Source: Candidatus Peribacteraceae bacterium
GTDB taxonomy: Bacteria > Patescibacteriota > Gracilibacteria > Peribacterales > Peribacteraceae
Direction of reading: 5' to 3'
Assembly (NCBI GenBank): GCA_013140485.1
Contig: JABFSS010000116.1
Coordinates: 1-37,495, forward strand
DNA: 37,495 bases
In this document: piece after piece, positions 2,833 to 21,285 of the stretch
Numbering within the stretch: the stretch's first letter is position 1
Layout: every line of letters begins with the position of its first letter
Position numbers and translations under genes: made by a program
The notes under the pieces: model-generated
Databases searched by the model: none
What the model was told of the DNA's origin: nothing
Seen by the model: the letters and a program-made list of their open reading frames with translations, nothing else

Positions 2833-5800
2833 TTACGGCAGACACGTCACCATCGTCGTCGCCGTCGCGGAGTTGTTGCTCATATTCGTATCCGTGCCCG
2901 CGGTGGTCGATACGTTCGCCGACTTCGTGAACGGCGTATTGCACCGGTAATCGGAGACGACGCGCAGGAAGACCATGAAGGTCTTGCTCTCGCCGGGCGC
3001 CAAGCTCGGCACGATGCACGTGACTTCCGTTCCGTTGGACGTGCACTCATCGCTGGAGAGCAGGTCGCTGAAGAGGAAGTCCCCGGGCGGCGGCTGAATC
3101 ATCTTGGCCGATGCGACAGTGGTGGTGCCGACGTTCTTCACGACGATCGTTTCGGGGAGATCGAATCCGCGGTTGACCTGCGGCGGCAGACTGAGCGTCA
3201 CCGACAGATCGACGGCTGCACCGCCGCCGTTCGTCTCATCGTTGTCCTGTGAGTTGACGCAGCCGGGATCGGAGGAGTCGACAAGACCGTCTCCGTCGTT
3301 ATCAACGCCGTCGCTGCATTGGGCCGGAGGAGCGGAGTTGAACTCATCATTGTCCTGGCTGTTCACACATCCGGGATCGACTGCATCGGCTTTGCCGTCT
3401 CCGTCGTTGTCGACGCCGTCCTGGCATTGCGATTTCGGATTCGTTTCGTCGTTGTCGGTCGCGGCGCTGCAACTGAAGTCGCTCAAGTCCGTAAATCCGT
3501 CGCCGTCGTTATCGATGCCGTCTTGGCACTGGGCGAGTGCGCAGACGGGCGGGAATCCGCAGAAGGTGAATGACGAGTAGCCGTTGCCCCCAAAGGTGAT
3601 GCCATTCGTGCCGAAGCCATTATGGAAACCCACTCCCTGAATTGCGGACGCGGCGCTGCCGCCGGCGCCGATGGACATGGACGGGGCGGAACCTGCGGGC
3701 ACTTTGGTGCCGTTGCTGAAGACGAGCTCAATGGCATCGATGTTATTGCCGACATTGCTGACCGGACCCGGCGTGAACGCCTGGACGGTGAAGCAAGGAC
3801 CGCTCGAATCCAATTGACCCGCGGAGTTGCTGACGAAGAAGTCGTACTTCTCGCCAAAAGTCAGGCCGGTATCAAGGTCTGCGTTGCCGGGACCTTGCGC
3901 GATGTCCTGGATCAGACGCACGTCATTTTTGGCGTAGCTGTACTTGGCGGTCGGCTCAGGAGTGGGACCGGACGATTGTTCGTAGATATCAAACCCCACG
4001 AGTCCCGGCATGTTCAGAAGAGACGTGGTGGGATTGGGGCACGAAGAGGAATTCGACTCGTCCGTATCTTGCGCATTGGAACATCCCGGATCCTGCGGGA
4101 AATCGACGAGTCCGTCGCCGTCGTTGTCGATGCCGTCCTGGCATTGCGCGGCCGGAGCGGCATTGGATTCATCGTTGTCTTGCTTGCTCGAGCAACCTGC
4201 ATCCTGCGGGAAGTCGACTGCGCCGTCGCCGTCGTTATCGAAACCGTCCTGGCACTGCGATTTCGGGTTCGTCTCATCATTGTCCGTCGCGGAACTGCAA
4301 CTGAAGTCCGCGGAATCGGTCGCGCCGTCACCGTCGTTATCGATACCGTCATTGCACTGGAATACTGTCGGAGGAGGCGGGCCGGAGCAGGTGATAAGAA
4401 CGGAATCCGTCGAGGTGTTGTTGGACGAATTACCGTCGACTGCCGAGGTCGTGCTGACCGTCGCCTGTTTAGTGATGGTCGAGTTGCATGCCTGGGAAGG
4501 CGAGACTGTCAGGTACGTCCAGAAAACGGTGGACTGGCCGGGCGCGAGGTTACCGACGGTGCACGTCACGGTCACGCCGTTCGAAGAACAATTTTGGCTG
4601 GAGAGCGAGGAATTGAACGTGAGACCGGCGGGGAGCGCCTGCGTCACCAAGGAACTCGCAATCGCCACGGAACCCACGTTCTGGACCGCAATTTTCTCCG
4701 GCATGTTGTCACCGCGATTGATCTGCGGATCGATGGCGAGGAACACCGCGAGATCCGCGTTCACGGGCGGCGCGTTGAATTCGCTGTCGTCCTGCAAGCT
4801 CACGCATCCCTGATCCGACACGTCGACGAATCCGTCGCCGTCGTTATCGATGCCGTCCTGACACTGGGCCTTGGGGAAGGTTTCGTCATTGTCTGTCGGT
4901 GAACTGCAGCTGAAGTCGCTCGGGAAGTCGGTCGCGCCGTCGTTGTCGTTGTCGATGCCGTCCTGGCACTGCGCGGCAACCGGCTGATTGAATTCGATAT
5001 TGTCCTGCTTGCTCGCGCAACCCGGATCCTGCGGGAAGTCGACGAGGCCGTCGGCATCGTTATCGACACCGTCCTGGCATTGCGACTTCGGGTTCGTCTC
5101 GTCGTTGTCGGTCGGGGCGTCGCAACTGAAATCATTCGGGAAGTCCGCGGCTCCATCGTTGTCATTATCAATGCCGTCTTGGCATTGCGCGGCCGGCGGA
5201 GGCGGGTTCCCGCCGCACGTCACGCGGAATGAATCCGAAGCGGTGTTGTTTGCGGCATTGATGTCGGTGACACCGATGGCGGTGACCGTCGCTTGTTTGT
5301 TGACGATCGAATCGCAGGGCCATGTGGAGGGAATCGTGAGGAAAACGACGAAGGTCTTCGACTGTCCCGGAGCGAGACTGGCCACGGTGCAATCGATGCT
5401 GACGCCGTTGAAGGCGCATGCGGGATCGGACAGGGCGGCGTTGTATCCGAGACCCGTCGGAACGATTTGCTTTACCGTGGCGCTCGGCACCGTGACGGAA
5501 CCGACATTCTGCACGCCAATCTTCTCAGCCATATTGTCGCCGCGGTTGATCTGCGGATCGATATCGAGACTGACTGCGAGATCGGCGCCGGCGGGAGGCG
5601 GAGGAGCATTGAACTCACCATCATCCTGCTTGCTTGTGCAACCCGGATCGCCGGGGAAGTCCGTCTGACCATCGCCATCGTTATCGATGCCATCCTGGCA
5701 TTGCGACTTCGGGTTCGTCTCGTCGTTATCCGTCGGAGCACTGCAACTGAAGTCGTTGGGGAAATCCACGGCTCCATCATTGTCGTTGTCGATGCCGTCC

Positions 5801-8220
5801 TGACATTGGAAGAGGGTGGGCTGAGTGAACTCATTATTGTCCTGATTGCTGGAACAGCCGGAATCCTGCGGGAAGTCGGTTGCGCCGTCTGCGTCGTTAT
5901 CAACGCCATCCTGGCATTGGGCTTTGGGATTCGCTTCGTCGTTGTCGGACGAAGAACCGCAGCTGAAGTCGTTCGGGAAGTCTGTGGCTCCATCGTTGTC
6001 ATTATCGATGCCGTCGCTGCATTGCGGCGCGGGCGGCGGGCCGTCCGGACAGGTGATGAGGACGTTCCCCGACGCGGTGTTATTTGCCGGATTCGTATCG
6101 GTGGCCGACGTCGTGGTGACGGTGTCCTGGAATGTTGCGGCAGAACCGCAGGGCGTCGTTGCGGGAACGAGCAATGCAACTTGGAAAGCAATGGACGCGC
6201 CTGGAGCGAGGTTCGAAACCGGGCAAGTGACGAATGCGGTATCCGACGTGCAGGCGGGATTCGAGGACGCGGGAACGAAAACGTATCCGGCCGGAATCGG
6301 CTGCTTCAAAACGGCGGACGCAACGGCCACGCTACCGAGGTTTTTTACACCGAGAATTTGCGTGAGATTGGTGCCCCGGTGGTTTTGCGGGGGAACCGAA
6401 ATAGTCGCTTGCAGGTCGACACCCGCTCCGCCTCCACCGTTCGTTTCGTCGTTGTCCTGCTTGCTCGCACATCCGGAATCCTGTGAGAAATCAGAGAGAC
6501 CGTCTCCGTCGTTATCGACGCCATCCTGGCACTGCGCCTTGGGATTGGTTTCGTCGGTGTCGGTCGCGGAGCTGCAACTGAAGTCGTTCGGGAAGTCGAC
6601 TGCACCGTCGCCATCGTTATCGACGCCGTCGGAGCATTGTGAAGCTGTTCCGTTGCAGGATTTCTGGAAGTTCAGCAGATTCACGTAGTTCTCCGTACGC
6701 TTGGGGCCGCAACTCAGCAGTCCCGTCTCGTTGGTATTGAATACCACCGATCCGTGCCCGTTCTGGGCCGGCGTGAATGCAATGGCAACCTGTGCCGTGG
6801 AATTGAGGATCGCGATCGACGACGGCAATGTGCCGCCCCATGCGGCAGAATTAGTGAAGGTGATCAGCGCATCGGTATTGCGGCCCACAATTTTTTCACC
6901 GGTGAAGATGGGATGCGTGGTTGTCACCGCTTGGCACGCTCCGCCTGCGGTATTATCAAGCGTGCCACTGAACTGTATGCCAAGATTTCCGGCGATTTGG
7001 TTCACGCGCGCCGTGCAATTGCCGAGGCGCTGCTGACCGTGCCCGGTGTCGCCGTACGCATCGTCCGCTGTGAGGCTCAAGCTTCCACCCGCGAGGTAGA
7101 AGCTGCGGATCACAGCGAGTTCAGCTGACGAGAGAAGCCCCGTATTGCCGCCGCAACCGTTGTGGAAGTACGAGATATCAAAATTATTCTTGTTGAGGAC
7201 GGAAGACGTGATCGTGGGAAGTGAATTCCTATTGTAAAACGTAACGTTGTATCCGAGATTAACAAGGCCTTGCTCTTCGGATGGAATAAGTGGCGGGTTC
7301 GGTTGAAGATCAATGTAGATGATGCGCGCTGCACGGCACGAAATCTGATCGGATTCGTCATTGTCCTGCGCGTTGACGCAGCCGGCATCAACCGCGTCGA
7401 ATTTTCCGTCACCATCGTTGTCGATGCCGTCCTGGCACTGCGACTTCTGGTTCGTTTCGTCGTTGTCGGTCGGAGCGTCGCAACTGAAGTCATTCGGGAA
7501 GTCGGTCGCACCGTCACCGTCGTTATCGATGCCGTCGTTGCACTGCACATCGCCGCATGCGGCCGGGTACCCTCCGAACGTGAATCTGGAGTAGCCGTTG
7601 CCTCCAAAGGTGATGCCATTCGTGCCGAAGCCATTATGGAAACCTACTCCCTGAATGGAGGACGCGGCGTTGCCTCCGACGCCGATGGACATGGACGGGA
7701 CGGAGCCGGCGGCCACCTTGGTGCCATTGCTGAAGACAAGTTCGATCGCATCGATGTTATTGCCCACGTTGCTGACCAGTCCGGGCGTCCAGGCTTCGAC
7801 CGTAAAGTACGCGCCCGTCGGATCCAATTGACCCGCGGCATTGCTGACGAAGAAGTCGTACTTCTCGCCGAGAGTCAGGCCGGTATCAAGGTCTGCATTG
7901 CCGGGACCTTGCGCGATGTCCTGGATCAGACGCACGTCATTTTTGGCGTAGCTGTACTTGGCGGTCGGCTCAGGAGTGGGACCGGACGATTGTTCGTAGA
8001 TATCAAATCCCACGAGTCCCGGCATGTTCAGAAGAGACGTGATGGGATTGCTACAGGCTGCCGGCGCGTTCTGACTTACCTGAAGTGCCGATCCGGAAAC
8101 GTCGTACGCCGTTCTCGCGTGAGCGAACGCCGGAAACAGAGTTGCGGACAAAACCATCGCGGTCATCGTGAAACATCCCACAAATTTTTGAAGTCGCAGG
8201 AGACAAAAACGGCTTTGCAT
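2833..8220 (-). CDS. Large secreted repeat protein: signal peptide, 18 Cys/Asp-rich 'CxDGxDNDxDG' units, four DUF11/CARDB-like domains, two copies of a ~160-aa domain
   Basis: ORF of ~1,795 aa. N-terminal signal peptide ...MTAMVLSATLFPAFAHA. Repeats such as QCQDGIDNDGDGAVDFPNDFSCSSATDNDETNPKS resemble thrombospondin-type-3/EF-hand-like Ca-binding repeats. DUF11-like units: ADLAVSLDIDPQINRGDNMAEKIGVQNVGSVTV.... Confidence 0.9.
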   Translation of the reverse strand: MQSRFCLLRLQKFVGCFTMTAMVLSATLFPAFAHARTAYDVSGSALQVSQNAPAACSNPITSLLNMPGLVGFDIYEQSSGPTPEPTAKYSYAKNDVRLIQDIAQGPGNADLDTGLTLGEKYDFFVSNAAGQLDPTGAYFTVEAWTPGLVSNVGNNIDAIELVFSNGTKVAAGSVPSMSIGVGGNAASSIQGVGFHNGFGTNGITFGGNGYSRFTFGGYPAACGDVQCNDGIDNDGDGATDFPNDFSCDAPTDNDETNQKSQCQDGIDNDGDGKFDAVDAGCVNAQDNDESDQISCRAARIIYIDLQPNPPLIPSEEQGLVNLGYNVTFYNRNSLPTITSSVLNKNNFDISYFHNGCGGNTGLLSSAELAVIRSFYLAGGSLSLTADDAYGDTGHGQQRLGNCTARVNQIAGNLGIQFSGTLDNTAGGACQAVTTTHPIFTGEKIVGRNTDALITFTNSAAWGGTLPSSIAILNSTAQVAIAFTPAQNGHGSVVFNTNETGLLSCGPKRTENYVNLLNFQKSCNGTASQCSDGVDNDGDGAVDFPNDFSCSSATDTDETNPKAQCQDGVDNDGDGLSDFSQDSGCASKQDNDETNGGGGAGVDLQATISVPPQNHRGTNLTQILGVKNLGSVAVASAVLKQPIPAGYVFVPASSNPACTSDTAFVTCPVSNLAPGASIAFQVALLVPATTPCGSAATFQDTVTTTSATDTNPANNTASGNVLITCPDGPPPAPQCSDGIDNDNDGATDFPNDFSCGSSSDNDEANPKAQCQDGVDNDADGATDFPQDSGCSSNQDNNEFTQPTLFQCQDGIDNDNDGAVDFPNDFSCSAPTDNDETNPKSQCQDGIDNDGDGQTDFPGDPGCTSKQDDGEFNAPPPPAGADLAVSLDIDPQINRGDNMAEKIGVQNVGSVTVPSATVKQIVPTGLGYNAALSDPACAFNGVSIDCTVASLAPGQSKTFVVFLTIPSTWPCDSIVNKQATVTAIGVTDINAANNTASDSFRVTCGGNPPPPAAQCQDGIDNDNDGAADFPNDFSCDAPTDNDETNPKSQCQDGVDNDADGLVDFPQDPGCASKQDNIEFNQPVAAQCQDGIDNDNDGATDFPSDFSCSSPTDNDETFPKAQCQDGIDNDGDGFVDVSDQGCVSLQDDSEFNAPPVNADLAVFLAIDPQINRGDNMPEKIAVQNVGSVAIASSLVTQALPAGLTFNSSLSSQNCSSNGVTVTCTVGNLAPGQSTVFWTYLTVSPSQACNSTITKQATVSTTSAVDGNSSNNTSTDSVLITCSGPPPPTVFQCNDGIDNDGDGATDSADFSCSSATDNDETNPKSQCQDGFDNDGDGAVDFPQDAGCSSKQDNDESNAAPAAQCQDGIDNDGDGLVDFPQDPGCSNAQDTDESNSSSCPNPTTSLLNMPGLVGFDIYEQSSGPTPEPTAKYSYAKNDVRLIQDIAQGPGNADLDTGLTFGEKYDFFVSNSAGQLDSSGPCFTVQAFTPGPVSNVGNNIDAIELVFSNGTKVPAGSAPSMSIGAGGSAASAIQGVGFHNGFGTNGITFGGNGYSSFTFCGFPPVCALAQCQDGIDNDGDGFTDLSDFSCSAATDNDETNPKSQCQDGVDNDGDGKADAVDPGCVNSQDNDEFNSAPPAQCSDGVDNDGDGLVDSSDPGCVNSQDNDETNGGGAAVDLSVTLSLPPQVNRGFDLPETIVVKNVGTTTVASAKMIQPPPGDFLFSDLLSSDECTSNGTEVTCIVPSLAPGESKTFMVFLRVVSDYRCNTPFTKSANVSTTAGTDTNMSNNSATATTMVTCLP

Positions 8221-8467
8221 ACGCAAGAAGGTGAGAGATAAAAAAGGAAGTTACTGTGAGGCAGACGCAGTCAGCGGTCAATCCTTACCGGGCTGTTTCT
8301 ATCATGTTGTAGCCAATAGTTGCTCTTCCGCCCGTGAGTAAGCGGATGGTGATCATGAATAATTACTAATAAGTAACTTTTAAGTATTATTGTCAATATT
8401 CATGGTATTTGGCTCTGTGTAGGCTTCTTTGGAATTAATTATGAAGGAAATTGTTGTGTAACACAGT

Positions 8468-10726: not shown

Positions 10727-11821
10727 ATGAAAAAATTCGAAAATCTCTCCCCCGCTCTTCGGAAGTTCATCCTCCCGGAAACCGACATCTCGCAGCTCGG
10801 CACCGTGTCCGATCTCGTGAAAAAAAGTGATACTCCGGTCTCTGCCTTCGCCGAAAGGACGCTTCGGCACTGCAACGGCGGCTCGACGCTCCAGGCCGCC
10901 CTCTGGCTGAAGGAACATCTGGCGAACGGAGGCAAGATCGTCGTCACGATCGCGGGCGCACTGAGTTCGTTCCAAGTCGGCGTCACGCTGGCGGAGTTGA
11001 TCCGAAAAGGAAAAGTTCATCTCGTCTCCGCGACCGCCGCGAACCACGAGGAATCGTACTATCGCTACGTCGCCCATTCGCACTACGCCTACATCCCCCG
11101 TTACACCGAACTCACGCCGGAACAGGAAGCCGAGCTGCGGGATGCCGGTCTGCGGCGGATCACCGATACGTTCCTCCCCGAGGATGAGAGCGTGCGCATC
11201 ATGGAGCCGCACCTCTGCAAAATGTGGCAGGACGCGCAAAAGAAAGGAGAGCGATACTTCCCGCACGAATACTTCCGCCGCCTCTACGCCGAAAAGTTGA
11301 TCCGGCCCGACCCCATGGCGAACGCCGGCGACTGCTGGACCTACGCCGCATACGAGAAAAATATTCCCATCGTCATCCCGGGCTTTGAAGATTCGACGAT
11401 GGGCAACATCTTCGCGAGCTACACGTACGGCGGAAAGTGGCGGACCGACAAGAGCATCCTTCTCGACCCCACGATCATGAAGGGCGGACTGGAGTACTTC
11501 ACCTGGATGTACGACTGGTACATGGAAGAGTCGAAAGACAGCCCCATCGCCTTCCTGCAGCTCGGCGGAGGCATCGCAGCCGATTTCCCCATCTGCGTCG
11601 TCCCCTCCCTGAAACACGATCTGCAGCACAAAGATGTCCGCGACTGGGCCGGCTTCGTCGAAATCGGTTCCTCGCCCATGTCATACGGCTCCTACTCCGG
11701 CGCGGGCGGAAAAGAGAAGATCACGTGGGACAAGCTCTCGACCAAGAGTTACTTCCAGATCATTCAAAGTGACGTCACCGTGGCCTTCCCCTGGATTGCA
11801 GCCATCCTCTTAGATCTCTGA
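10727..11821 (+). CDS. Deoxyhypusine synthase-like protein (possible homospermidine/spermidine-forming enzyme)
   Basis: LRHCNGGSTLQAALWLKEHLANGGKIVVTIAGALSSFQVG..., PMANAGDCWTYAAYEKNIPIVIPGFEDSTMGNIFASY, candidate active-site Lys in KITWDKLSTKS. Confidence 0.88.
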   Translation: MKKFENLSPALRKFILPETDISQLGTVSDLVKKSDTPVSAFAERTLRHCNGGSTLQAALWLKEHLANGGKIVVTIAGALSSFQVGVTLAELIRKGKVHLVSATAANHEESYYRYVAHSHYAYIPRYTELTPEQEAELRDAGLRRITDTFLPEDESVRIMEPHLCKMWQDAQKKGERYFPHEYFRRLYAEKLIRPDPMANAGDCWTYAAYEKNIPIVIPGFEDSTMGNIFASYTYGGKWRTDKSILLDPTIMKGGLEYFTWMYDWYMEESKDSPIAFLQLGGGIAADFPICVVPSLKHDLQHKDVRDWAGFVEIGSSPMSYGSYSGAGGKEKITWDKLSTKSYFQIIQSDVTVAFPWIAAILLDL

Positions 11822-11883
11822 AGTCCAAACAGAGCGAGAGGACTAAAAAAATAATCACTCGGCAGGCGGCAAAAAGAAAATTT

Positions 11884-11911
11884 TTGACACGACACTCACG
11901 CTCACTATACT
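11884..11911 (+). promoter_or_regulatory. Sigma70-type promoter TTGACA-N16-TATACT upstream of the decarboxylase gene
   Basis: TTGACA at 11884-11889 and TATACT at 11906-11911; ATG at 11938. Confidence 0.75.
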
Positions 11912-11937
11912 TCGACTCTGTTTGCTTTTTTCTCGAA

Positions 11938-13536
11938 ATGAAAAAACGTTCTCAGGAATCCAAGAAGCGCAACACCATCGGACATCCGGTCAACAGCCGA
12001 TACATGCGCGACCGGTGGAGCAGTTTCCTCAGCCAAACCAAAGACGGCATGCTGATGATCGAAGGTGTGCGCGTCGATGACATCGTCAAGAAGTACGGCA
12101 CTCCCCTCTACATCATGGTCGAGGGCGAAATCCGCGACCGTCTGCGGCGCTTTAAGAAAACATTCGGCGCCCGCGTGAGCTTGCAGTACGCGGTCAAGTG
12201 CAACAGCAACCTGGCGATCCTCCGCATCATCCGCGAAGAGGGTTTTGAGCTCGACTGTTCCAGCGTGGGCGAATTGATCCTGGGCCTGCTCGCGGATTTC
12301 AAGCCGCGCCAGTTGGTGCTCACGAACCTCTTCAAGAGCGAGCAGGATCTCTACTTCGCCGCCAAGATGGGCATCCAGGCGATTACCGCGGACTCCATAG
12401 AGGAGATCGAGCACATCGCCGCGACGGCGAAGAAATTGAAGAAGCACATCCGCATGCTCATACGCGTGAATCCGATGGTCCAGGTGGGAACATGGTCGAC
12501 GCGAGGCAACAAGTACGGCATCCCCATCGGGTACATCGACCGCGCCGTGGATTTGGCCGTCCGAAGCCCGTACGTGGACTTCGACGGATTCCACTTCTTC
12601 GGAGGCTACGTGTACCAAGCCCGCGTCTACAAGGCCGTGGCGCGCGTGCTCGTGAAGCTCATCAAGCGCTGCCAGAACCGCGGCATCCGGGTGCGCCGTC
12701 TCGACATGGGAGGAGGATTCCCCGCCGCCATCGGCGACGAGGAGGCGTTCCCTATCGAAGAAATGAAGGACTTCCCCGCCTATTTCCAAAAACTGATGGA
12801 CCAGAACGGTCTTCCATCGCTTGAACTGATTTTTGAACCGGGGAAGAGCATCGTGCTCAACGCCGGCATTGGACTCATGAAGGTGATCGCGCGCAAGCGC
12901 CTGGGTGCCAAGCACCGCATGGTGAACGTCGACGGCTCCAGTTACAACTTCGTCCCCGACACCCTCGTGCAGGGAGCATTGAAGGTGGAAGAAGGCGGCC
13001 TCCGGTACGACGTGCTCCCGGCGACCAAGATGAACGCCCCCCGCATCCATACGGTCTCCATCGGCGGCAACACCTGCGACTGCTGGGATCTGATGGCCCG
13101 CAACGTCGAACTCCCCAAGATGCGCGTGGGCGACACGGTCGCCATCATGGACGTGGGAGGATATGCGCAAGTGCTTGCGAACAACTTCAACACGATCAAG
13201 CGCGCCTCAGTGGTGATGATCCGGCCGGACGGTTCCACGACCCTCATCCGCCGGCGCGACCGCTACAGCGAAATGTTCGGTCCGGAACTCGACGTCCTCA
13301 AGCTCGCCGGTCCCGACGAGTTGGAGAAATACAACAACATCTACCGCGTGAACATCGACGAAATCTGGCGCGGCGGCGGCATGACGGCCTTTGAGAAAAA
13401 GAAAAAGGGCGGCGGAAACGGCAACGGGAATGGCCACGGGAACAAAATGAAAAAGGCGTTCGAGAAAATCGAGCAGCAGCACAACGTGAGCGCCGGGAAG
13501 GGCAAGGCGAAGAGGGCGGTGGGAGGGACTCCGTAA
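11938..13536 (+). CDS. PLP-dependent alanine-racemase-fold (fold III) decarboxylase, arginine/ornithine/diaminopimelate decarboxylase family
   Basis: LQYAVKCNSNLAILRIIREEGFELDCSSVGEL, LDMGGGFPA, FEPGKSIV, GGNTCDCWDLMARNVELP. The start at 11938 is supported by the promoter upstream. Confidence 0.87.
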   Translation: MKKRSQESKKRNTIGHPVNSRYMRDRWSSFLSQTKDGMLMIEGVRVDDIVKKYGTPLYIMVEGEIRDRLRRFKKTFGARVSLQYAVKCNSNLAILRIIREEGFELDCSSVGELILGLLADFKPRQLVLTNLFKSEQDLYFAAKMGIQAITADSIEEIEHIAATAKKLKKHIRMLIRVNPMVQVGTWSTRGNKYGIPIGYIDRAVDLAVRSPYVDFDGFHFFGGYVYQARVYKAVARVLVKLIKRCQNRGIRVRRLDMGGGFPAAIGDEEAFPIEEMKDFPAYFQKLMDQNGLPSLELIFEPGKSIVLNAGIGLMKVIARKRLGAKHRMVNVDGSSYNFVPDTLVQGALKVEEGGLRYDVLPATKMNAPRIHTVSIGGNTCDCWDLMARNVELPKMRVGDTVAIMDVGGYAQVLANNFNTIKRASVVMIRPDGSTTLIRRRDRYSEMFGPELDVLKLAGPDELEKYNNIYRVNIDEIWRGGGMTAFEKKKKGGGNGNGNGHGNKMKKAFEKIEQQHNVSAGKGKAKRAVGGTP

Positions 13537-14196: not shown

Positions 14197-14805
14197 TTAC
14201 TTCTGAGCCTCGAAAAAACGTCTCTCCACCTCCTTCCAATTCACCACATTCCAAAAGGCTTTCAGATAGTCCGGCCTTTTATTCTGATATTTGAGGTAGT
14301 AGGCGTGCTCCCACACGTCGACCCCGAGGATCGGCGTCTTGCCCTCCATCATCGGTGAATCCTGATTCGGATAGCCTTTGAGGATGAGCTTTCCCGAATC
14401 GACGTAGAGCCATGCCCAACCGGAACCGAACTGATTCGTCGCCGTCTCCTCGAACTTCTTCTGGAAGTCTTCAAAATTTCCGAAGGCGCCTTCAATGGCT
14501 TTCAGAAGTTCTCCGGAAGGCTTTCCCTCCGATTTGGGACCCATCACGGCCCAAAAGAGACTGTGATTGAAGTGCCCGCCGCCGTTGTTCTGCACCGGTT
14601 TCTTCTTATCGGCAGGGAGCTTGTCGAGGTTCTGGAGAACCTCTTCAATCCCCTTCTCCGCCCATTCGGTACCTTCCAGCGCCTTGTTCACTTTGTCGAT
14701 ATACGCCTGATGATGCTTGGTGTGATGGATTTCCATCGTCTTCGCATCAATATGCGGTTCAAGCGCATCGTACGCGTAGGGGAGTTTTGGCAGGGTGTAC
14801 GGCAT
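14197..14805 (-). CDS. sodA/sodB: Superoxide dismutase (Fe/Mn)
   Basis: [40 protein letters not shown]..., [34 protein letters not shown]. Confidence 0.97.
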
Positions 14806-14810
14806 AGGGT

Positions 14811-14820
14811 GAGTATACTC
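14811..14820. promoter_or_regulatory. Palindromic -10 element GAGTATACTC shared by divergent sod and femAB
   Basis: The intergenic gap is 23 nt (14806-14828). TATACT is readable on both strands. Confidence 0.55.
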
Positions 14821-14828
14821 TGAGACGC

Positions 14829-15851
14829 ATGGAGATTCGACTTCTTACCGATCCGGAGGACCTGAAGCGCTACGGCGAATGGATCCGAACACACCCGGAA
14901 GGCTCGCTCTGGCAATCGCCGGAATGGAAAACGTACCAGGAATCCCTGGGCCGGCAGGTGAGGATCTACGCGGCGATGGAGGGGGCGGAGATCCGTGCCT
15001 CGGCGCTGGTGGTGATTGACCACACGACGTTCGGGCTGACGACGTGGGAGATTCCTCGCGGCCCGCTCGGAATAATTGAAAATGGAAAATTGAGAATTGA
15101 GAATAAAAACTTTCTGGAAAAGATTATCCGAGATGCAAAAGATGACCGCTGTTTATCAATCTATTGCTCTCCCGTTCATCCATTCTCAATTCTCAATTCT
15201 CAATTCTCAATTTCACGCCGATTGGTGATGCCCGAAGCCACCCGCATCATTGATCTCACCCTGAGCGAAGAAGATCTTCTGGCGCAGATGAAACCGAAAG
15301 GCCGGTACAATATCCGACTAGCCGAGAAGCACGGCGTTCGCGTAATGCCCTCCAGTGACGTGCAGGCCTTTGCGCGCTTGGCAGAGGAGACTGCTCGACG
15401 GGACGGTTTCAGAGGCCATTCTGCAGCCTTTTATGAACGATTTTTGACCTGTCTACCGGGCGCATTTTTGCTGTTCGCACTTCCTCCAGAGATTGTCATC
15501 CCGAGTAGCTCGCTGCGGAGCAGCGAGCGTATCGAGGGGGCAGGGCTCTTGGGGGTGATCTGGGGTAAGACTGGCATCTACTACTACGGAGCTTCCTCGC
15601 ATGCGCAAAAGGAACTCATGGCGCCCTATCTGCTCCAGTGGTCAGCAATGAAGCACTGCAAAGCTCATGGATGCACTTCGTATGACCTCTTTGGTATTGC
15701 CCCCGAAGGCGCAGTCGATCATCCATGGTCGGGAGTGAGTGACTTCAAAGTGAAGTTCGGCGGCTCGGTTGTGAACTATCCGCCGGAACAGGAGATTGCC
15801 CTCCGCCCTTTTCTCAAATATCTCCTGAAAATAAAACGAGGCTTGGTATGA
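14829..15851 (+). CDS. FemAB/peptidoglycan bridge-type aminoacyltransferase (GNAT fold)
   Basis: [22 protein letters not shown]..., [46 protein letters not shown]...[11 protein letters not shown]. Confidence 0.88.
15074..15213. repeat. Inverted array of GAATTGA units inside the femAB-like CDS
   Basis: aattgaaaatggaaaattgagaattgagaat (15074-15104) and attctcaattctcaattctcaattctcaattt (15182-15213), reverse complements over 18-19 nt. Confidence 0.75.
15495..15538 (+). repeat. GTAGCTCG-hairpin repeat, copy 1, inside the femAB-like CDS
   Basis: gtcatcccgagtagctcgctgcggagcagcgagcgtatcgagggg. Confidence 0.75.
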
Positions 15852-15855
15852 CTTT

Positions 15856-16068
15856 TTACAGAACTCCTTGAGCAAGCGCTCTCGCACGCTCAAGACGAAC
15901 GACGACGGCCGAGCAGGCGACATCCAGTCCTTCTGATCGCAATCTAGCGGACTCGACTTGTGCCTGCGCGAACAAGCCTTTCACTTCCCCATTATCGCTA
16001 TGGGCCTGAGCCAGGGTTTCGAATTCTTGTAATGCCCCTAAATAATCGCAACTATGTTTTACAACCAT
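15856..16068 (-). CDS. Small hypothetical protein (70 aa)
   Basis: MVVKHSCDYLGALQEFETLAQAHSDNGEVKGLFAQAQVESARLRSEGLDVACSAVVVRLERARALAQGVL. The longer ORF-track version overlaps the S-layer gene and is unlikely. Confidence 0.4.
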   Translation of the reverse strand: MVVKHSCDYLGALQEFETLAQAHSDNGEVKGLFAQAQVESARLRSEGLDVACSAVVVRLERARALAQGVL

Positions 16069-16147
16069 GCGGACAGAGTAGCAAAATCTCGTCCTGAGAA
16101 AAGCCCTTTTGGAAGCCAATAACCGGCTCAATCTTCTCTCAGCGTTT

Positions 16148-16192
16148 GTCATTCCGAGTAGCTCGTGGCGGAGCCACGAGCGTAACGAGGAA
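16148..16192 (+). repeat. GTAGCTCG-hairpin repeat, copy 2 (intergenic)
   Basis: gtcattccgagtagctcgtggcggagccacgagcgtaacgaggaa. Confidence 0.75.
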
Positions 16193-16195
16193 CAA

Positions 16196-16224
16196 CAAAA
16201 AAGCCTCTCCTTTCGGAGAGGCCT
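16196..16224 (-). terminator. Rho-independent terminator of the S-layer gene
   Basis: Minus strand GCCTCTCC-GAAA-GGAGAGGC-TTTTTT. Confidence 0.85.
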
Positions 16225-16264
16225 TCTTGTACTGAATGGGAACTCTATCCCAACAGATTGGTAA

Positions 16265-19200
16265 TTAACCCTGGTAACTCGTCGACTTGATCGTGGTCTC
16301 CGGATACTCCACCCAGAGGAAGCTGGAGGAGGTCGTGTGACCGGCCGAGATCGTCGAGTTGTCGGAATCCACCCACTCGAAGTGGCTGAGCGTGGAAGCG
16401 ACACCGAAGGTTGTGAGCGAGAACGAGTCGAAGTTCACGATGCTGACTTGCAGCGTGGACGTCGATGTCGAGCTGAGCTTGGGGTTGATGATCTTCGCCT
16501 GGAGGACGAAGGTCTGATCCGAGCCCGGATCGATGGTCGCGTTGACCAAGCTCGTCGCAGTCTTGGACAAGCCGCTGCAGTACACAACGAAGGAACCGGA
16601 GGAGACGTACGATGTCGTCAGCGCTGTGCTGGCAACAGGGTTGAAGGCCGTGCAGGCCTCCGTCACCGTGGAGTTCGACTTGTTGTAGAACTTGAACAGC
16701 GAGGTGTCCATACCGACGTTCGTGGCGTTGACGTTGAAGACCACGCCCGAGAGAAGGACTTTGTTCAAGCCGTTCTTCGAGTTGCCGTTCGGAGCAGCCG
16801 AGATCTTGAATTGACCGATGTTCGACACATCTGTCGGGATGTTGCTGCCGTTGGCGTCGGGGTTGGCGTTCGCGATCGTGAGGATCTGCGAGAGGACGAC
16901 GAAGTGGCGGTTGCCGACGATATAACTGTTCGTCGTGGCCGTCTTCGTTCCGATGAAGATTTCGCCTTCACCGGAGGTGTCGCCGTCGTTGACTGCGAGC
17001 GTGTTGCTCGACTGGTCGCCGCGTGCGCGGATAGCGCCGGAACCGTTGGCGTTATCAAACGCTGCGTCGCGGGGGATGTAGAGCTGGACGCCGGTGCCGG
17101 AGATTGCGCCGTCGACGTCCGACTTGATGCGCGCCTTGACGAGCACTTTGACGTCAGAACCCTTCGGAACAACGAGCGAGCGGTTCTGCATCTTGAGACA
17201 GAACGCCTTGGTCGGAGCGAGGCCCTGACCTTCGTTGATCGAGCGAGTGCGATCGGATCCGCATCCACCGATGGTGGCGGAACCGAAGGACGTCGTCGAA
17301 CCTTCCTTGAAGAGTTCAAGACGATCGACGGACGACATGATCGAACCCGAAGAGTTCAATTGAATGTCGGTGACGTCGATGTCTTCGTTCTCGGAGTGGA
17401 GGTTCAAACGGAGAATGGTGTCTCCGAGAGCTCCGCCGAGGAGCTGGCGGTTGCGGACAGGCGTCGTGTCAACGGAGACGAAGAGGTCACCCTGACTGAC
17501 GAGAGCCCAGCGCTGCGCGGTGACGGTCGAAACCGTGATGTCCGCGCTGGTCGCTCCGCCGATGAGCGAGCCGTCGAGCTTGATGCCCGAGAGGCTGCTG
17601 CCGCGGTCAACTGTTTCAGCTTCCACGAACGTATCAGCCGTGGAGAACGCGAGGAGGAGATCGTCGTTCGTGAGGGAAGCGGCGATGTCCGAGTGCACCT
17701 CGAACACCACTGTCTTCTCTTTCGGAATAACGAATCCGCCGCCGGTCAACTGTGCGAAGGTGACCTTGTTGCTCTGAGAGGTTTGACCCTTCTCGAGCAC
17801 AGTGTCGACCTTGCCGTCGCCGTCGGTGTCTACCCAGAGCGTGTAGTTCAAGCCGTTCTGGAGGGACGTTGCGCCGGTGCCGGAGTTGAAGATGAACTTG
17901 GTCAAGAGAATATCCTTTGCTTCACCTGCGCGAGATTCGAAGCGGAACAGGTTGATGTTCTTGCTGTTCTTGACCGCGACATCGGACGTGCCGGTCGCCT
18001 TGACGGCGATCGTCAGGTTCGCGTCGGCGATGCGCTGCGAGTTACCCGTGATGGTGTTGCGCGGGCGGACGTCGTTGACTTTGTCGCCCGTGCTCAGACC
18101 TTCGACCTGCATTTGGTAGCTGGTGACGGTCTGCGCGATGTGACCTCCGAAGGTGCAACCGACCGTGTTGGTGCCGGTGCTGACCTGCGTCGGTTCGCCA
18201 CAGATGTGGATCTTGAACGTGTCTCCGTTCTTCGGGTGGTTGCCGGAACCGTTGTCGATGAAGTCGACGCGGAGCTCGTAGGTCTCCTTGCCGTTTACCG
18301 TGAAGTCATCGAAGCGGTAGATCTGGTATGTACCCACGCTGGCTGTCTGACCGGAGGTGCCGCTGTCGGTGAGACGGACGGCATCAATGCTGCGGCCGGT
18401 TGCCTTGTTGCGGAGCTGGACGTTTTCGAGAACTTCGTTAATAGCGTCGTAGGACGAAGTGCCGCTGGAAGCGAGCGTCGCACCTGTGCTGGTCTTGCCT
18501 TCGACAGCAACGAAGAGTTTGCGAACGTTCACGCGCTCGCCACCGGTCGTGAAGATGATGTTGGCGAGGACTGCTTCGTTCTGATCGCGTGTGTAGCTCT
18601 GCTGTGACGGACCGTCGATTTCGATGGTGAATTCACCGGCATCGATGGTAACCGTGGCGGGCAGAGTGGAGGTCTCCGCGATGATCGCAATGCGCGAGCC
18701 GTAGAGTTGTCCGTTCACGCCGTACCCGTACAGGGAACCGACGGCGAAAATGTCGGACGTCTCCTCGAAGTGCATCTTCGCGGTGTCACCGGCGCCGCCG
18801 ATGACGTCCGCAATGATGTCCATCGTGAGCTTGTCGCCCTCAAGAACCGTGAAGGGCGGATCGAAGACGAAGGTCATGAAATCTCCGACCGACGTCTCGA
18901 CGGTGTTCGTGAGAACCGTACCGTCGCTGCGGCGGAGCTTCAAATTCGTGAGATCTCCGTCGTGAACCGTACCGTCGTTCTCAATGGTCATGGAGTAAAC
19001 CGTCTGGTCCTCGGTGGAGTCGGTCGAGATCTGGAACTTACCGACGACGACACCCTTGTCGCCGACTTCGACCTCATCCGGAGAAACCGTGCGGTACTCA
19101 ATGCTGACGCGTCCGCTGCGGACGGCGGCGACCTTGAAGGTGCTGCCGCGGAGCGGGAAGTTACCCGTCACCTGCTTCGCGTTCGTCGTGATATCGGACG

Positions 19201-20539
19201 GAAGTTCGGCTGCCAAGTTGTGCTCGGCGGACGTGGTTGCCGTGGAGTTGAAGTCCGCGGCGATGTCGACAGTGACGGTCTTGCACGCAGCAACCTGGAG
19301 CGTGTTGCTCAAGTGGATGCTTGCAGTCTGGTCCTTGCTGTCGATCGTGCGCTTGCGCGAGATGCGGGCGCCGTTGACGGTCGCGTAGACGCCGTCGATG
19401 TCGTTTTCGTCACCAAAACCTTCATGGAGAACCGTGAGGTCGGTGATGGACGCCTGATCGTCACAGGACGCCGTGATGTCGATGGAAAGCATCGTCACGC
19501 CGACCGCTCCCTGGGGGATCGTGTCGCCAACCGGGTTCTTGGAAGAAACCGAGATGGAGAGCGTGCTGTTGCTGGTCGGGAGAGCCGTGTAACCCGTGAA
19601 CGTGTCGGAATCGGAAAAGATCGTGCCATCCGAACCCTTAACGTCGGTTGCGGTGACCGTGTATTCCTTTCCACCCGTGAGATCGCCGGAGAGCGTGAGC
19701 TCAACCGTGTCGTCCGCAACGAGCTTGGCGGAGGTGACGGAGACTTCCGGGTTCGCACCCGTGACCGAGTAGTGACTGGCCGTCTCTGCGGAGGTCTTGT
19801 CCATGTTGATGGAGAACTCAACCTCGACTGTCTTTGAACTCGTCGCCTTCACGCTGGCCATGCCAACAGTGACGGGACCTCCATCGTCGCCGCAATCGAC
19901 GCCGTAGGAGAGACCCTGGTCCACGCGGTAAAGCATGACGACCATTTCAGCGCGGTTCATGTTGTCGCTCGGGCGAACGCGGCCCGTGGAATCGTCACCC
20001 TGGAGAACGCAGTGATCTGCGGACGTCTGGATAGACTCCGTGTACCACTGGCCACCCGGGTTATCGACGAACTGGGGAGCTGCACCCGTCGCCTCGAGCC
20101 CGAAGGCGCGGACGATGAGAGCGGCTGCCTCGGCGCGGTTAATGTTTGCGCCTGGGCGTGCGTAGCAAGGATGGGTGCCGTAGCAGTTGCCATCGCCGCG
20201 AACCCACTGCTCTTTCGCAGCCTCTTCCATGTAAGCGTAGTACCAGGCCGATGACCCAACGTCATCGAAGCTGGCGACTGCGGGCGGGGTCGAGAGGAGA
20301 CCACCGTTCAGCATGACGAGGAGCTTAACGAACTCCGCGCGGTTGGCGTTGTCGCCGCCGCGGAAGCGCGGTTGGCTCGCGTCTAGGATGCCGTTGTCCG
20401 TGAATGCGGAGACGGCTTCCTCGAACCAGACCCCGGAGGCCACGTCGGAATAAGCAGCAAACACGCTCGACACTGGGCTGAGCATGATGGCGCTGGCCGA
20501 GAGACCTGCGAGGACTTTCTTAAAGCGAGAAATGTCCAT
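16265..20539 (-). CDS. S-layer protein with three N-terminal SLH domains and Ig-like surface domains
   Basis: MDISRFKKVLAGLSASAIMLSPVSSVFAAYSDVASGVWFEEAVSAFTDNGILDAS...NRAEFVKLLVM...; SLH repeats; long beta-rich region. Start set at the signal-peptide Met rather than the 21034 ORF start. Confidence 0.92.
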   Translation of the reverse strand: MDISRFKKVLAGLSASAIMLSPVSSVFAAYSDVASGVWFEEAVSAFTDNGILDASQPRFRGGDNANRAEFVKLLVMLNGGLLSTPPAVASFDDVGSSAWYYAYMEEAAKEQWVRGDGNCYGTHPCYARPGANINRAEAAALIVRAFGLEATGAAPQFVDNPGGQWYTESIQTSADHCVLQGDDSTGRVRPSDNMNRAEMVVMLYRVDQGLSYGVDCGDDGGPVTVGMASVKATSSKTVEVEFSINMDKTSAETASHYSVTGANPEVSVTSAKLVADDTVELTLSGDLTGGKEYTVTATDVKGSDGTIFSDSDTFTGYTALPTSNSTLSISVSSKNPVGDTIPQGAVGVTMLSIDITASCDDQASITDLTVLHEGFGDENDIDGVYATVNGARISRKRTIDSKDQTASIHLSNTLQVAACKTVTVDIAADFNSTATTSAEHNLAAELPSDITTNAKQVTGNFPLRGSTFKVAAVRSGRVSIEYRTVSPDEVEVGDKGVVVGKFQISTDSTEDQTVYSMTIENDGTVHDGDLTNLKLRRSDGTVLTNTVETSVGDFMTFVFDPPFTVLEGDKLTMDIIADVIGGAGDTAKMHFEETSDIFAVGSLYGYGVNGQLYGSRIAIIAETSTLPATVTIDAGEFTIEIDGPSQQSYTRDQNEAVLANIIFTTGGERVNVRKLFVAVEGKTSTGATLASSGTSSYDAINEVLENVQLRNKATGRSIDAVRLTDSGTSGQTASVGTYQIYRFDDFTVNGKETYELRVDFIDNGSGNHPKNGDTFKIHICGEPTQVSTGTNTVGCTFGGHIAQTVTSYQMQVEGLSTGDKVNDVRPRNTITGNSQRIADANLTIAVKATGTSDVAVKNSKNINLFRFESRAGEAKDILLTKFIFNSGTGATSLQNGLNYTLWVDTDGDGKVDTVLEKGQTSQSNKVTFAQLTGGGFVIPKEKTVVFEVHSDIAASLTNDDLLLAFSTADTFVEAETVDRGSSLSGIKLDGSLIGGATSADITVSTVTAQRWALVSQGDLFVSVDTTPVRNRQLLGGALGDTILRLNLHSENEDIDVTDIQLNSSGSIMSSVDRLELFKEGSTTSFGSATIGGCGSDRTRSINEGQGLAPTKAFCLKMQNRSLVVPKGSDVKVLVKARIKSDVDGAISGTGVQLYIPRDAAFDNANGSGAIRARGDQSSNTLAVNDGDTSGEGEIFIGTKTATTNSYIVGNRHFVVLSQILTIANANPDANGSNIPTDVSNIGQFKISAAPNGNSKNGLNKVLLSGVVFNVNATNVGMDTSLFKFYNKSNSTVTEACTAFNPVASTALTTSYVSSGSFVVYCSGLSKTATSLVNATIDPGSDQTFVLQAKIINPKLSSTSTSTLQVSIVNFDSFSLTTFGVASTLSHFEWVDSDNSTISAGHTTSSSFLWVEYPETTIKSTSYQG

Positions 20540-20584
20540 AAAAGAAATAAAGAAAAGAGGAAATAAAAGCGAATTGGATTGATT

Positions 20585-20633
20585 GTCAGTTCGAGTAGTT
20601 CGTCCGCCTGAGGCGGACGAGCGTATCGAGGAA
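20585..20633 (+). repeat. GTAGCTCG-hairpin repeat, copy 3 (upstream of the S-layer gene)
   Basis: gtcagttcgagtagttcgtccgcctgaggcggacgagcgtatcgaggaa. Confidence 0.75.
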
Positions 20634-21285
20634 GATTCAATAAACGTGCAAAGATTGTCCACGCACCTGGATGTTGTTGGGAATGAGTGCCAGAAGGCAC
20701 TCCCCTCCTTAAATATAAAGAGATGAAACACACCCGATACATGTCCTGCTGCGAACAGCAGAAAGCCCCCAAAAAAGAAGGGGGGTTGAACAATCGAAAA
20801 TTCATACGAAACACGATCCGAACCCAAAAGGGATTGGATGTGGGATAACTGTCGCTCTGTAAGAGAGGCAGGTGCCGAATTTTCAAAGATCAGATACGCG
20901 TCGACCACGCTCACCGTTTTTTGGAGCGGATCAGGGGGATGGTACAGAACCCGTTTCCCGCTAATCAAGCGTCCAAACTGGCTTGGGTGGCAGTGCAGAT
21001 AACGCTCCGGCCCGGGGGGTGTTACGGTCCGCATAAGGAGAATGTCCTGTTTGCGGCATCTACGGGCACAGCGTTTGGCGATTCTCTAACGAATTTAGAC
21101 GCCAAAAGTGGGGTTGGGGACCGGGGCATTTGACTGGAAATACGGTTGCAAAAATGGGGTTTCGGTACATAGTCGGCCCCTATATTCAGGATCACGCGTA
21201 AAGAGGAGTTTCCGGAAAGAATACTGCACGCAAGAATTCCTGACGTCAGCTTCTCTCGACTCGATGTACAGAAGAACGAAGAGGA

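Follow-up and report, generated by a model that had tools for sequence, protein, structure and literature searches.

How does a segment of a protein-coding gene come to recur, as DNA, between genes? The question is raised by the femAB gene of a Candidatus Peribacteraceae bacterium, a member of the Patescibacteria. Specifically, 45 nt of this gene, which code in frame for a 15-residue peptide (residues 223-237), resemble two sites located farther along the window, by which we mean the whole 37,495-nt stretch of DNA that was analyzed. The first-pass annotation of the window regarded the segment as a second type of repeat within femAB and suggested that the genome tolerates invasion of its open reading frames by repeats. 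It proposed a genome-wide covariance-model search, with the copies inside genes counted and their reading phase and position relative to predicted loops recorded, and it named an observation that would speak against it: the same peptide, at the same position, in FemAB homologs that lack the DNA repeat. Here, we report that the segment belongs to a genus-level family of dispersed, REP-type palindromes, and that the protein loop it occupies is filled, in other species of the family, by repeats of unrelated kinds.

The femAB gene and its two repeats

The Pfam FemAB profile matches the product of the gene at 8e-43, and an AlphaFold2 model built from 18 sequences (mean pLDDT 89.1) matches FemX structures in Foldseek at 1.4e-24. 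Residues that are invariant among 18 FemAB orthologs are retained in the host protein, and the nearest named relatives come from metagenome genomes assigned to Candidatus Peribacteria or Peribacteraceae. The element, which occupies positions 15495-15539 (+), sits in a predicted loop of low confidence: the only stretch of the model with pLDDT below 50, residues 223-227, lies in the loop between the strands at residues 212-218 and 238-245. The annotation had the sequence and the frame of the element right, but ended it one base short.

Two unrelated repeat families in frame in one gene, as had been claimed, are indeed present. femAB holds both the REP palindrome and a heptanucleotide inverted repeat, the arms of which are 90% complementary and built from 7-nt units (Table 1). 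This inverted pair falls in two FemAB loops, and most species possess different repeat-like units there. Elsewhere in the window, positions 2833-8226 (-) encode a very large protein in which the motif CxDGxDNDGDGxxD is repeated many times, and positions 10727-13536 (+) contain, in this bacterial genome, a deoxyhypusine-synthase-like gene beside a PLP decarboxylase gene.

Table 1. Features of the femAB region, in window positions
Feature	Positions	Strand	Remarks
femAB gene, FemX-like aminoacyl-transferase fold	14829..15851	+	340 aa, open throughout
Heptanucleotide inverted repeat (first repeat type), left arm	15074..15104	+	residues ~83-93
Heptanucleotide inverted repeat, right arm	15182..15212	+	residues ~119-129
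REP-type palindrome inside femAB	15494..15540	+	covariance-model match, 47 nt
GTAG at hairpin foot	15505..15508	+	alignment columns 12-15; last G opens the stem
Hairpin: 9-bp stem GCTCGCTGC / GCAGCGAGC, GGA loop	15508..15528	+	alignment columns 15-23 and 27-35
REP copy downstream of femAB, outside genes	16147..16193 (16148-16192 in the first-pass annotation)	+	86% identity by BLAST; covariance-model match
Divergent REP copy, 11-bp stem	20585..20633	+	outside genes, upstream of the likely start of a minus-strand SLH-domain gene

A family of dispersed palindromes

Both intergenic copies reported by the annotation exist, and both lie outside genes. The second, at 20585, is divergent: its stem differs and is longer, its score is weak (21.8 bits versus approximately 50), and its flanks and fold are retained. 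The chance expectation for the 45-nt element in the window, allowing up to three mismatches, is 0. Further copies are present throughout the host genome, which is a 1.52-Mb draft in 130 contigs. BLAST yields 66 matches to the element, a profile search confined to the regions surrounding those matches yields 71 copies, and the covariance-model search yields 83 matches at E ≤ 0.001. The core of the femAB copy is identical, at 37 of 37 positions, to that of a copy on another contig (C66:5681-5717). Over positions 14800-20700 of the window, no Rfam family matches near its gathering threshold.

Thirty-seven full-length copies align gap-free across 47 positions and reveal the anatomy of the element. 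Four blocks, TGTCA, CGAGTAG, CGTA, and CGAG, are invariant among them, and the stem is variable. The structure comprises an outer 4 bp and an inner 9 bp, with GTAG at the 5' foot of the hairpin in all 37; in femAB, the order is TGTCATYCCGAGTAG, the 9-bp stem with its GGA loop, and CGTAACGAGGRA. Across this alignment, stem positions are paired in 99.6% of cells, and changes on both sides are found at 11 of the 13 stem pairs. None of 500 shuffles equaled the observed pairing and covariation, and in a sliding-partner control, pairing falls to 33-51%.

Most REP copies lie outside genes, as judged from the genome stretches around the copies, and clusters of copies in opposite orientation occur in the host genome. 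Arrays of four units, ordered - - + + and spanning approximately 230 bp, are found on six host contigs (C37, C51, C62, C66, C68, and C91). The similar order of members in these arrays suggests a composite unit.

The host's Y1-type transposase was considered as the mobilizer of the REP copies. This role is not supported; a different palindrome is located upstream of its gene and inside it. The gene (L009:1294-1953, on host contig C104) is the only Y1-type transposase gene found in the host genome. Its internal palindrome, GTCAGCGCAGACG/CGTCTGCGCTGAC, is in frame and perfect, the upstream palindrome is its sister, and their family occurs at 23 places in the host genome. In one congener, a related transposase gene has a REP copy approximately 240 bp upstream, a placement that chance could produce with 44 copies.

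Copies within other genes

At least six genes harbor internal REP copies in frame: femAB, murB, yebC, and the genes encoding an F420-ligase-like protein, an M23 peptidase, and a PMT-like membrane protein. The last two are weaker cases: the M23 peptidase copy sits in an inherently variable linker, and the PMT-like case comes from the host gene. The element also supplies the C-terminal tail of four products, one a dCTP-deaminase-like protein and three encoded by other ORFs. In-gene copies were called by a simple codon-usage score to which homology was added, the score itself being too weak to sort all copies (it missed femAB). Regarding reading phase, four of the element's six frames are open in most copies, and the in-gene copies, which occur in both orientations, use three of those four.

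In comparisons with congeners, stem sequences change but pairing persists. The murB insert is common to the host and one congener and is absent in two other congeners. The stems of the two carriers are CTCCCGGC/GCCGGGAG and TTCCCGGC/GCCGGGAA; a C-G pair is replaced by T-A, on both arms, and the encoded amino acids change from L to F and from A to T. Similarly, the site of the F420-ligase copy is occupied in one congener by a copy whose stem is perfect yet different throughout, and it is empty in another congener. Replacement of one copy by another, i.e., conversion, could explain the difference. Outside genes, the congener site matching the 16148 copy also holds a REP copy, in which changes on both arms have turned a C-G stem pair into T-A.

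Two of these genes contain other repeats as well. The F420-ligase-like gene (L103, on host contig C75) is a second gene with both repeat types in frame, and the unit at its heptamer site differs in each of three congeners. At the yebC loop occupied by the REP in the host, one congener has another palindrome and a second has a GGGCTC-type tandem (L104 and L105), so that yebC may offer another case of a recurrently filled loop.

A recurrently filled loop

The REP family is concentrated in the host's genus. Next to the 83 covariance-model matches in the host, three congeners have 44, 33, and 9, and most other genera have few or none. A FemAB match is present in all 74 family genomes. The REP peptide is found at the corresponding position in 0 of 49 family orthologs, and all three congeners are without it. 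Thus, the host segment is an added repeat and not an ancestral look-alike peptide, in keeping with the first-pass reading. No closely matching empty femAB site was found; the congeners are approximately 65% identical to the host in FemAB.

Among 50 species of the family, the loop is 7-11 residues long in 29 and at least 12 residues long in 21. Outside the family, it is 7 residues long in nearly all FemAB proteins examined. Repeats account for approximately 17 of the 21 long loops, an approximate count assigned by eye and partly checked by genome searches, and shared ancestry means that not all of these filling events are independent. By eye, the repeats fall into three classes: the REP (in the host), C/G-rich palindromes of the CCCTCCCCC type (seven), and tandem units, mostly of 7 nt (nine). 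The remaining 4 of the 21 long loops are ambiguous. Dispersed matches to the C/G-rich palindrome class are present in six relatives (1-8 each), and one heptamer-type loop has 16 matches in its own genome. The same FemAB loop is, in short, recurrently filled by unrelated repeats, and this is the unusual part of the finding.

This pattern bears on the suggestion that the genome tolerates repeat invasion of its ORFs. The suggestion holds insofar as intragenic copies exist in at least the number given above, but most copies are extragenic, and tolerance belongs to certain loops throughout the family rather than to the host genome alone.

Origin and maintenance of the in-gene copies

Are the in-gene repeats useful to their hosts? 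Loop repeats might be kept for a useful length or composition, for example in substrate or partner binding, and might supply raw material for adaptive loop diversification. The filling of one loop by different repeats in approximately 17 of 50 species fits such a role, as does the persistence of the murB and F420-ligase inserts between species. Nonetheless, we consider it unlikely: loop sequences are unrelated between species, 29 of the 50 species possess the short loop of 7-11 residues, the femAB segment has very low model confidence, and two amino acids of the murB insert changed with no loss of base pairing. That same change on both arms of a coding copy, along with the strong pairing and covariation, could alternatively signify selection on RNA structure, with the in-gene hairpins functioning as mRNA elements in translation pausing, decay, or attenuation. 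However, copies point both ways with respect to genes and sit at unrelated places in them, and the femAB copy is absent in congeners. Moreover, template switching yields changes on both arms and can by itself keep hairpins perfect (PMC8794818). An RNA function strikes us as improbable.

Other explanations dispense with insertion or with the gene itself. Local slippage or template switching could have given birth to the loop repeats on the spot, and in several other species the loop does contain simple tandem repeats of approximately 7 nt that are locally expandable. We judge a local origin very unlikely, because the core of the femAB copy matches C66:5681-5717 at 37 of 37 positions on another contig, and because the copy has all of the family-conserved flanks, which local events would not create. 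Finally, given a draft assembly of 130 contigs, one might suspect that the host femAB is a pseudogene or a misassembly. That suspicion is very hard to sustain: the 340-codon ORF is open and keeps the residues invariant among 18 orthologs, the AlphaFold2 model is confident, the downstream context is common to a congener, and independent species behave alike at the same loop.

The best explanation, and as a whole probably the correct one, is REP/HUH-type spread with tolerated in-frame loop inserts and maintained stem pairing. The notion is that copies would spread via single-strand-DNA transposition of the REP/HUH kind and land both within and between genes, and copies that break genes would be lost. 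The surviving in-gene copies would be those located in exposed loops and read in one of the four open frames of the six; they would persist as tolerated extensions of 13-15 residues that have no required function. Stems would stay paired because the two arms are rewritten in concert, by template switching in hairpins or through selection for mobility, with amino-acid changes accepted as a price. These two forces are alternatives that the present data do not separate. The FemAB loop would be an especially tolerant site, and so the active repeat of a lineage would tend to end up there. A further and more speculative possibility, less likely than not, is that a few housekeeping-protein loops in the Peribacteraceae serve as standing landing pads at which dispersed repeats are time and again inserted, exchanged, or converted in frame. 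Loops would then turn over with the repeat active in each lineage, as a general and continuing mode of loop evolution and not as isolated accidents.

These results add a small-genome family of Patescibacteria to Rickettsia and the few other bacteria in which palindromes are known to be inserted in frame. They provide a natural series in which unrelated repeats are added to one loop across approximately 50 species. The murB pair, in which a dispersed hairpin kept its pairing while two amino acids changed, makes template switching versus selection testable. For annotation, peptides of the form VIPSSSxRSxERxEG or SLVTxxxPxxxTRDD in Peribacteraceae genomes flag repeat-derived segments.

Comparison with known systems

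GTAG together with a palindrome is what TnpA-REP proteins recognize in vitro (PMC8266576), and GTAG-tagged REPs, including intragenic ones, have been described (BMC Genomics 2013, 14:522, PMC3733652). The Peribacteraceae repeat family displays several of the features by which REPs are recognized: a GTAG foot, a stem-loop with complementary variants, and many mainly extragenic, opposite-paired copies. Its likeness to the GTAG-REPs of PMC3733652 encompasses a short hairpin with GTAG at its foot, complementary alternatives among the stem residues, pairs in opposite orientation, and a mainly intergenic location with some in-frame intragenic copies, dual inserts among them. There is also a precedent for different repeats at one site, in that recB of two Xanthomonas species contains different REPs at about the same place (PMC3733652). 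Unlike the GTAG-REPs, the Peribacteraceae hairpin is enclosed by a conserved, pairing outer part (TGTCA-YCC ... GGRA), most of its stem varies freely, and no linked RAYT was found. The host, moreover, belongs to a Patescibacteria lineage, and the word Candidatus is absent from PMC3733652.

The Rickettsia RPEs are palindromes present in frame in genes of unrelated proteins, with products that are likely functional, and two of them, RPE-4 and RPE-6, are CGTC-tagged (PMC3733652). The Peribacteraceae element resembles them in its in-frame presence within protein genes, the functionality of the proteins being inferred here from conservation. Membership in the CGTC-tagged/RPE class is ruled out, as TGTC stands in place of CGTC in 37 of 37 copies. 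Regarding the other repeat type, heptanucleotide short tandemly repeated repeats are known from cyanobacteria. Units of 7 nt likewise make up the first femAB repeat and many of the relatives' loops, but here they are coding, they lie at conserved loop positions, they form an inverted pair in femAB, and the unit differs in most species. No relevant report of repeats like these turned up in a search of the Peribacteria literature. Intragenic REPs and RPEs are already a known kind of element, and the Peribacteraceae element is a variant of that kind; the recurrent filling of one loop across a family and the both-arm changes in a coding copy are what should interest a specialist in this variant.
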